64,000 nt of DNA from Brevundimonas sp. SORGH_AS_0993 (GTDB lineage: Bacteria; Pseudomonadota; Alphaproteobacteria; Caulobacterales; Caulobacteraceae): positions 129,001-193,000 of the forward strand of contig NZ_JAUTAH010000001.1 in the NCBI RefSeq assembly GCF_030818545.1, written 5' to 3'. This document shows, piece by piece, positions 24,900-26,815 of this stretch. A program made the translations under genes and the position numbers. Below the pieces are notes generated by a model. That model searched no databases and was not told where the DNA came from. It saw only the letters and a list, made by a program, of their open reading frames with translations. Position 1 is the first letter of the stretch. The number at the start of each line of letters is the position of its first letter.

Positions 24900-24968
24900 G
24901 GGGCGTTCGTCCCGGTGTTATGAGGCCGCCGAGACAGAGGCTCGGCCAGCGTTGAAAACGACGGCGCC

Positions 24969-24991
24969 CGACCTTTCGGCCGGGCGCGAGA
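24969..24991. other. Hairpin in the trcR upstream region
   Basis: Upstream of trcR, GCGCCCG and CGGGCGC form a 7-bp inverted repeat around ACCTTTCGGC. It lies about 70 bp before the trcR start, in a region that is otherwise richer in A/T than its surroundings. It could be a leader hairpin or protein site; function not determinable. Confidence 0.3.
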
Positions 24992-25120
24992 CCTCGTCTA
25001 TAGGCTTATTCGCGGCAAAAGAAAACGTCGCCCGACAATCCCATACAGCAACGGTTCATCCGCCCTGACGCAACCTTCGCGGCAACGAAGCTTTTTCGGA
25101 ATCGGGAGAGGAGAACCACT

Positions 25121-25762
25121 ATGTCCATTCTGCTTGGCGCGGCCCTGGCCGCCGCGATGGCCTCGGGCCAGGATTACGGGCCGCAACGGGTCGCTCCGCG
25201 TGGGGGCTACGCCCAGTCGTGCTCCGAGGCGTTTGTAAACCGCGGCCGGCTCTATGCCGACTGCCGCGACATGCGGGGTCGGATGCGCGGCACGTCGATC
25301 GAAGTGGCGCGCTGCGGCGACGAAGAGATCAACAACGATAACGGCCTCTTGGTCTGCGGTCGTTTCCGGGGCGACTACGAAGACAGCGACCGGCCCGGTC
25401 GTCCGGGCGGCGGCTGGGGGCCAGGCAATGGAGGACCGGGCAATGGAGGGCCCGGCTGGGGCGGACCGGGCTGGGGCGGCCCTGGCGGCGGCCCTGGCGG
25501 CGGATGGCGCCAGCCCTCCATCACCGTCTATGACCAGCCCAATTTCCGAGGCTCCTCGCGGGAATTCACCTCGGAAGACCGCAACCTGGGCCGCACCCCC
25601 TTCAACGACCGCGTCGTCTCGGTCCGGGTAGAAGGCCGGTGGGAGGTCTGCACCGACGCCCAGTTCCGGGGCCGCTGCCGCGTGATCGACGGCGACGTGC
25701 GCCGTCTGGACGGCGCCTTCTCGCGCAGCATCTCGTCGCTGCGTCCGGTCGGCCGCTACTGA
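25121..25762 (+). CDS. Secreted protein with CVNH-like and beta/gamma-crystallin-like domains joined by a Gly-rich linker
   Basis: The 213-residue product has a short N-terminal signal-like segment (MSILLGAALAAAMASGQ). Residues about 30-85 resemble a cyanovirin-N homology domain: SCSEAFVNRGRLYADCRDMR, then TSIEVARC and NGLLVCG, with Cys spacing like that fold. A linker of about 40 residues made of Gly/Pro/Trp repeats (GNGGPGWGGPGWGG) follows. The C-terminal 80 residues carry a beta/gamma-crystallin-like pattern (SITVYDQPNFRGSSREFT, then RWEVCTDAQFRGRCRVI, two Greek-key strands). A sugar-binding plus calcium-binding extracellular role is possible but inferred. The start follows GGGAGAGGAG. Confidence 0.72.
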   Translation: MSILLGAALAAAMASGQDYGPQRVAPRGGYAQSCSEAFVNRGRLYADCRDMRGRMRGTSIEVARCGDEEINNDNGLLVCGRFRGDYEDSDRPGRPGGGWGPGNGGPGNGGPGWGGPGWGGPGGGPGGGWRQPSITVYDQPNFRGSSREFTSEDRNLGRTPFNDRVVSVRVEGRWEVCTDAQFRGRCRVIDGDVRRLDGAFSRSISSLRPVGRY

Positions 25763-26734
25763 TCAGACGGTCAGCACGATCTTGCCGACGTGATCGCCCG
25801 CTTCCAGCGCGCGGTGCGCGTCGGCGGCCCGGTCCAGGGGAAAGGTCGCCTGGACCGGCGGCCTGACCGCCCCTGACGCCGCCCACGGCCAGGCGGTCGC
25901 CTCCACGGCGGCCGTCAGCCGCGCCTTTTCGTCCGCCGGCCGGCTGCGCAGCGTCGATCCGGTCAGGACCAGCCGCTTCAGCATGATCCGCATCAGATCG
26001 ATCTCGACCAGCGATCCGGTCAGGCTGGCGATCACGACCCAGCGACCGCCGGGCTTCAGGGCCTTCAGGTTCAACTCGGCATAGTCGCGCCCCACCATGT
26101 CCAGAACCACGTCGGCCCCGCCCGCCTCGGCGATCTTCGCCGCCAGGTCGTCGATCCGGGCGTCCAGGCTGACGTCCGCGCCCAGAGCTCTGGCCGCCGC
26201 CGCCTTGTCCGCCCCGCGCGAGGTGGCGATGACCCGCGCGCCCGCCGCCTTGGCCATCTGGATGGCCGTGACGCCGATGCCGCTGGTCGCGCCATGGATC
26301 AGCAGGGTCTGGCCCGCCTTCAGGGCGCCCGCCTCGAACACATTGGCGAAGACGGTGAAGACCGTCTCGGGCAGGGCCGCCGCCTGGACATAGTCCAGAC
26401 CGTCGGGGATGGGCAGGACGTGGCGGGCGTCGACCAGCGCCGTCTCGGCGTATCCGCCCCCGCCCAAGAGGGCGCAGACCCGGTCGCCGACGCGCCAGCG
26501 CGTCACGTCCGCCCCCACCGCCGCGATCTCGCCGGAGACTTCCAGCCCCAGGATGTCCGACGCCCCGGGCGGCGGGGGATAGACGCCGTTCCGTTGCAGC
26601 AGGTCGGGGCGGTTCACGCCGGCCGCCCGCACGCGGATCGTCACCTGGCCCGCGCTGGGCTTCGGCTCGGGTCGTTCCGCCGGTTTCAGCGCCTCCGCCG
26701 GGCCTGATCCGTTCTCGATCTCGATCACCCGCAT
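25763..26734 (-). CDS. Zinc-free NAD(P)H:quinone oxidoreductase, PIG3-like
   Basis: This is a medium-chain dehydrogenase/reductase that reduces quinones or enones with NADPH. The ATG at 26734 gives 323 residues (MRVIEIENGSGPAEALKPAE). The N-terminal GroES-like domain has VNRPDLLQRNGVYPPPPGAS, typical of PIG3 enzymes. The nucleotide-binding motif is LIHGATSGIGVTAIQMAKA, close to the MDR variant of GxGxxG. There are no zinc-ligand cysteines. Its stop lies one base from the end of the crystallin-domain gene. Confidence 0.88.
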   Translation of the reverse strand: MRVIEIENGSGPAEALKPAERPEPKPSAGQVTIRVRAAGVNRPDLLQRNGVYPPPPGASDILGLEVSGEIAAVGADVTRWRVGDRVCALLGGGGYAETALVDARHVLPIPDGLDYVQAAALPETVFTVFANVFEAGALKAGQTLLIHGATSGIGVTAIQMAKAAGARVIATSRGADKAAAARALGADVSLDARIDDLAAKIAEAGGADVVLDMVGRDYAELNLKALKPGGRWVVIASLTGSLVEIDLMRIMLKRLVLTGSTLRSRPADEKARLTAAVEATAWPWAASGAVRPPVQATFPLDRAADAHRALEAGDHVGKIVLTV

Positions 26735-26788
26735 GGGGCCTCCGCTTGCATTCGTCAGTGTCCAGGCGTGAAATAGGGACGACGGCCC

Positions 26789-26815
26789 GTATTGGCACGA
26801 CTGGTATTGGCACGA
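26789..26815. repeat. 12-bp direct repeat in a divergent promoter region
   Basis: GTATTGGCACGA occurs twice (26789-26800 and 26804-26815), separated by CTG, between the quinone reductase gene and the divergent DUF1192 gene. The 15-bp period does not match one helical turn. TTGGCACG resembles part of a sigma-54 -24 element, but no GC pair is well placed for -12. Confidence 0.5.

Follow-up and report, generated by a model that had tools for sequence, protein, structure and literature searches.

A single half-CVNH module joined to a βγ-crystallin domain in one member of a Caulobacteraceae bead family

We found that the gene at 25121..25762 (+) of the window, the whole 64,000-nucleotide stretch of Brevundimonas sp. 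SORGH_AS_0993 DNA that was analysed, encodes a 213-aa protein made of a half-CVNH module, a Gly/Pro/Trp linker and a βγ-crystallin domain, and that this protein is one member of a Caulobacteraceae bead family. Its most likely function would be to bind a surface or matrix glycan. The ORF and its conserved relatives mark a real gene: the start ATG sits 6 nt past an AGGAGA-type Shine-Dalgarno sequence, and the ORF is under purifying selection, with pairwise dN/dS of 0.04–0.45 and values below 1 wherever computable, across all comparisons and regions. The genome, a single 2.99-Mb contig, holds one copy. The N-terminus (residues 1–16; 25121..25168, +), MSILLGAALAAAMASG, is hydrophobic and has no basic n-region; reading the sequence, we considered it a putative export signal, and the B. 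diminuta orthologs begin with a classical MKK...AEAQ leader at the same place. The window protein is likely to be exported, either secreted or periplasmic. The Gly/Pro/Trp-rich linker described in the initial annotation was found as claimed (residues ~86–129; 25376..25507, +). It differs in length between orthologs and has the lowest confidence (pLDDT below 50) in the AlphaFold2 model of the protein, which was built from a 20-row alignment and is of modest confidence overall (mean pLDDT 61, pTM 0.40).

The N-terminal domain had been described as CVNH-like, which was right in kind but too large in extent: by sequence comparison, it covers ~52 residues and amounts to just one of the two repeats that make up the CVNH fold. 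The module (residues 28–79; 25202..25357, +) was delimited using PF08881, conservation of its cysteines (C34, C48, C65 and C79) and A3, a module profile made from a 28-row alignment and searched against PDB sequences. With A3, cyanovirin-N chains were matched with an E of about 1e-14, and each ~50-residue half of cyanovirin-N (CVNH, PF08881; 1lom, 3ezm, 2jzj) aligns separately with nearly the whole 52-residue module, so the module corresponds to one repeat of a two-repeat domain. Shared between the cyanovirin-N halves and the module are the first Cys pair, the equivalents of N42/N93 and T7/T57, and an IxN-x-(D/N)-G hairpin. A second CVNH repeat is absent from the window protein, where Gly-rich linker takes up the following ~45 residues and PF08881 matches over profile positions 1–54 of 102; a full CVNH domain is ruled out by this half match, and a chance resemblance by the search of the module profile against PDB sequences. 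The search with CVNH and crystallin profiles that had been proposed as a check came out differently for the two halves of the protein, as PF00030 scored above its cut-off (49.2 bits against 25, E 5.7e-13) and PF08881 below (17.9 bits against 24.5). Many orthologs pass the PF08881 cut-off (for example, G072 with 31.2 bits), and matches above it occur in 69/299 family genomes. When modules were scanned alone, 25/28 matched PF08881, with the window’s trimmed 52-aa module among the three without a match. The NCBIfam mannose-binding lectin profile NF052356, for which the cut-off is 80 bits, scored 24.5 and matched with its second half alone (positions 52–101 of 103). At the level of the single repeat, we regard the homology of the module sequence to CVNH as secure. 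A phage origin of the module is unsupported, a search of 50,697 phage records at E 1e-3 having given 0 matches.

Compared to cyanovirin-N, the window protein has one half and carries two extra cysteines, C65 and C79, which are kept in 136/138 distinct modules; the first two cysteines are present in 138/138 and all four in 136/138. C34 presumably pairs with C48, as in cyanovirin-N, and C65 and C79 may form a second disulfide flanking the hairpin. In the AlphaFold2 model, the module has a short helix and five strands, with a block pLDDT of about 66–75. Cyanovirin was matched directly at the fold level in just one case, the model of L021, a relative with two modules, for which Foldseek placed cyanovirin structures near the top (E 5.7e-6, with an rmsd of about 16 Å over 143 columns). 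The L021 model is itself of low confidence (pLDDT 59.5), and we read this result as each predicted half matching but the pair being packed unlike cyanovirin. VIA-align was uninformative on the module fold, since for both models crystallins filled the matches listed, with no cyanovirin among them.

Two module positions align with residues of cyanovirin-N that contact sugar, Ser33 (25217..25219, +) with Thr7/Thr57 and Asn72 (25334..25336, +) with Asn42/Asn93, as identified from the A3 alignment to PDB sequences and from conservation: position 72 is Asn in 136/138 distinct modules and position 33 is Ser or Thr in 133/138. The place equivalent to D44 is Asn or Asp in 128/138, whereas the place equivalent to V43 (position 73), between those of N42 and D44, is highly variable across the 138 modules, and the E41-equivalent place is likewise variable and not conserved. 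Dimannose binding by cyanovirin-N is lost with N42A and drops to the low mM range with T57A (excerpts of PMC8091458). These conserved contact positions back the proposal of the initial annotation that the protein might bind glycans or exopolysaccharide, and we infer that it may do so. As N42 and T57 of one cyanovirin-N site lie in different repeats in the alignment, the two sides present in a single half add up to exactly one site, which could be either closed within the monomer or shared by two swapped chains. A special case of sugar binding, overlapping with it in confidence, is that the half works solely as a strand-swapped pair that rebuilds a full two-site CVNH domain, giving a bivalent crosslinker. 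We consider this quite possible but lean against it: the origin of the two contact residues in different repeats favors it, as does the domain swapping of wild-type cyanovirin-N in crystals (also from the excerpts of PMC8091458), while the odd module numbers among relatives (1 and 3) and their spacers of 8–37 residues are better suited to autonomous units, and the two-module L021 model, at its low confidence, appears to hold the halves apart.

The C-terminal half is firmly assigned by profile and predicted model to the βγ-crystallins, with a double Greek-key fold, confirming the crystallin-like domain expected there. The domain covers residues 130–213 (25508..25759, +), was delimited by PF00030 and VIA-align, and contains a conserved Cys pair, C177/C186. 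Structure prediction had been suggested as a check, with the lack of a fold match as the unfavorable outcome, and for this half a match was found: the predicted model aligns to 2bv2_A with Z 13.9 and an rmsd of 1.6 Å over 79 residues, and to the archaeal M-crystallin 3hz2_A with Z 13.2, and the crystallin part has a pLDDT of mostly 70–82 by ten-residue block. Microbial βγ-crystallins (M-crystallin 3hz2 and Flavobacterium 3hzb) and Ciona 2bv2 thus have a fold like that predicted for the window domain, and share N/D-N/D-x-x-S/T-S motifs with most relatives of the window protein; they differ from the window domain in that the latter is fused to a half-CVNH module and is missing canonical ligands at one putative calcium site. 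The crystallin fold is also shared by I36/SMPI-type inhibitors, which raises the alternative that the C-terminal domain is functionally a protease inhibitor with the half-CVNH module as its targeting part. In its favor, PF03995 (Inhibitor_I36) reaches 21.2 bits, just above its 21.1 cut-off, but we consider this alternative very improbable: the score is far under that of PF00030 over the same residues, and canonical calcium motifs are kept in 66/87 relatives. The βγ-crystallin signature is Y/F-xxxx-Y/F-x-G in both keys (as given in part of PMC8639718); in the window protein, the first key, YDQPNFRG, fits this pattern, and the second, CTDAQFRG, begins with Cys instead of Y/F. The crystallin half of the window protein has evolved faster than those of its neighbors (dN/dS of 0.24–0.45 in pairs including the window, against 0.09–0.24 in other pairs).

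Each calcium ion in a βγ-crystallin is held by position 2 of one motif and position 5 of the other. The motif consensus is N/D-N/D-X1-X2-S/T-S (parts of PMC8639718 and PMC3551895). In comparison with relatives, the first motif of the window protein (NDRVVS, residues 162–167; 25604..25621, +) has Val in place of Ser at position 5, and the second (SRSISS, residues 201–206; 25721..25738, +) has Ser-Arg in place of the N/D-N/D pair. Lens crystallins are also without canonical calcium motifs, so such absence does not exclude membership of the fold family. For 87 distinct crystallin domains encoded in the same ORF as a module, we scored both motifs at position 2 for N/D and at position 5 for S/T. 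All four positions were canonical in 66; motif-1 position 5 and motif-2 position 2 were lost together in 13, including the window protein, and motif-1 position 5 alone in 5; motif-1 position 2 and motif-2 position 5 were lost together in 2 (L055 and a paralog in L025), and motif-1 position 2 alone in 1. No other combination of losses occurred among the 87. Considering how positions 2 and 5 are shared across motifs, all 21 noncanonical cases amount to loss at one putative site, and in the sampled domains both putative sites were never lost together. The pairing of ligand losses gives a Fisher p of 8e-12 with kinship ignored; on a tree built without the motif columns, at least three changes are needed per site, and with so few independent events (about three per site) tree-corrected tests cannot reach significance. 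The loss in the window protein looks recent, as the nearest rows of the tree keep both predicted sites, and one calcium site may remain. The description of this domain as often calcium binding therefore agrees with most relatives, which keep both motifs, but less well with the window copy, which is without canonical ligands at one of the two putative sites.

The initial annotation had also called the combination of the two domains unusual, but searches of genus and family genomes ruled this out in the sense of rare. The whole protein matched 114/121 genus genomes at E 1e-3, some via the crystallin part alone, and nearly all sampled Brevundimonas carry the module–crystallin fusion, which is also common in Caulobacteraceae. 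With the module profile, 140/249 family genomes matched, in 10/22 genera, as did 11/385 class genomes and 11/398 phylum genomes (the source genome and its congeners are included in all of these counts); among the genomes listed, at least 52 of the same genus had a match and at least 4 did not. Our family sample (24 named loci, 40 regions chosen from the genus search and further loci from the family, class and phylum searches) leans to Brevundimonas, and the relatives fetched by name were nearly all from this genus. Profile searches of the fetched loci yielded 111 distinct ORFs, with one module in 88, two in 15, three in 7 and six in 1. In one set of 61 ORFs, 56 had a module plus a crystallin domain, 3 had two modules plus crystallin and 2 had a module only (one of these, L023, being cut by a contig end). 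In a set of 50 ORFs from other genomes, there were 23 with module plus crystallin, 5 with two modules plus crystallin, 7 with a module only, 6 with two modules, 6 with three modules, 1 with six modules, 1 with three modules plus crystallin, and 1 with two modules and two overlapping crystallin matches, which are probably one domain. Repeated modules are separated by Gly-rich spacers of 8–37 residues, in contrast to the short hinge of cyanovirin-N. Some loci contain tandem genes: two module–crystallin genes lie in tandem at L025 (4803-6286), and L072 (1377-3600) has a row of a module–crystallin ORF, a module-bearing ORF and another module–crystallin ORF. Elsewhere in Brevundimonas genomes, L148, L149 and L150 are ORFs of 111–115 aa in which a single half-CVNH module stands without a crystallin domain, which makes them good candidates for the minimal module. 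Outside Brevundimonas, L045, L046, L131 and L154 join a single half-CVNH module to other kinds of C-terminal part.

The locus between trcR and the dehydrogenase gene is conserved across sampled Brevundimonas. TrcR (PF06242; 24237..24899, −), named in Pfam as a cell-cycle transcription regulator, is the divergent neighbor, and a zinc-type alcohol dehydrogenase/quinone-oxidoreductase-like protein (25763..26797, −) is convergent and abutting; each is adjacent in 63/64 loci (several of which are the same genome under two ids), and the one exception for each is a contig end. No glycan-synthesis gene lies next to 25121-25762, the neighbors being these two genes. Upstream, an alignment of 54 upstream regions and a genome search identified a conserved element, TACAGCnnnGGTTCAT (25044..25059, +), whose one exact match in the genome is at this position. 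As a regulon motif in this genome it was rejected: in addition to the single exact match, there was one match with a mismatch, compared to one for a reversed control pattern. In the leader (25044-25120), 28 of the 50 relatives with a full leader have a stem of at least 5 pairs before the ribosome-binding site (shuffled mean 3.8/50, maximum 7 in 20 shuffles), at the same place and with sequences that change yet stay complementary across relatives; the stem is degenerate in the window copy. RNA control or an mRNA-stability hairpin is a possible explanation of this pattern. Nothing above cut-off was found in Rfam around the gene, and no sigma-70-type promoter was found for it. On the minus strand, upstream of trcR, 24963-24988 contains a GC-rich stem-loop and, after it, a T-rich stretch; all Rfam matches there fell below threshold.

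Considering these observations together, the reading we favor, at about even odds, is that the window protein is a secreted or periplasmic lectin-like protein with one sugar site and a calcium-stabilised crystallin partner. In such a protein, the half-CVNH module would be a 52-residue disulfide-bonded β unit holding both sides of one cyanovirin-type sugar site, formed by the Ser/Thr preceding the first Cys and by the Asn-x-(Asn/Asp)-Gly hairpin. The flexible Gly/Pro/Trp linker would tie it to the βγ-crystallin domain, which would be stabilised by its disulfide-capable Cys and, in this species, by calcium at the one remaining site, and which would anchor or present the module. The ligand could be a mannose-like or related glycan in the cell’s own envelope, capsule or extracellular matrix, or on a neighbor. 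One module would provide one site per chain, and relatives with two to six modules would gain valency; such beads-on-a-string relatives, being typical of avidity, argue for a lectin role. Also in its favor are the homology to both cyanovirin-N halves, the conserved contact positions beside the variable position 73, the predicted helix and strands of the module, the crystallin fold, the one-site pattern of calcium-ligand loss, the purifying selection and the fixed locus. Counting against it are the variable E41 place, the absence of an adjoining glycan-synthesis gene, the modest model confidence, the rmsd of about 16 Å in the L021 match, the small number of independent ligand losses and the lack of a basic n-region, and the contact residues could perhaps be conserved for turn geometry. 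An unlikely alternative, though one with evidence on its side, is a structural or stress protein of the kind exemplified by protein S and spherulin 3a, in which disulfide- and calcium-stabilised β-domains hold or protect the envelope with no sugar recognition. The neighborhood without a glycan gene and the two extra Cys in the module are consistent with this, as is the literature on microbial βγ-crystallins, which are known chiefly as domains that calcium stabilises (PMC8639718). However, it is exactly the cyanovirin contact residues that are conserved, with a variable position beside them, and it is the module that has been multiplied repeatedly, rather than the crystallin part. The lectin reading also has a bolder form, which we hold as doubtful: the cyanovirin repeat would have become an autonomous, ~52-residue, two-disulfide minimal lectin bead with its own complete sugar site, used singly or strung together and linked to a βγ-crystallin domain tuned by calcium, and would serve Caulobacteraceae as a system for binding surface glycans throughout the genus. 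From the alignments and models we infer, without choosing, that the half may close on itself or may swap with a second chain.

Parts of this arrangement resemble known proteins. The caulollins of Caulobacter crescentus, reportedly described by Jobby and Sharma in 2007 as members of the βγ-crystallin superfamily that gain structure on calcium binding, come from the same bacterial family and the same superfamily as the window protein; the likeness is drawn from the title of that paper, which names no CVNH part. A CVNH-LysM lectin (PDB 2l9y), said in a reference title to come from Magnaporthe oryzae, also fuses a CVNH unit to another domain, but it is fungal and combines a full CVNH domain with LysM, whereas the window protein is bacterial and combines a half-CVNH module with a crystallin domain. 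Among the titles and abstracts listed in searches of the open-access literature, none dealt with a CVNH–crystallin fusion, a weak indication that no such paper exists.

In cyanovirin-N, an antiviral lectin that has been studied, the two halves interlock. If the half is indeed autonomous, few natural lectin folds would be smaller, and one half of the cyanovirin pseudo-dimer would prove able to exist by itself. A naturally occurring lone half, held together by its additional Cys pair, would offer a minimal scaffold ready for use and would allow the evolution of the fold to be tested directly. The crystallin partner adds what may be a natural calcium experiment, in which one putative site was lost several times, and both never, in the 87 sampled domains.
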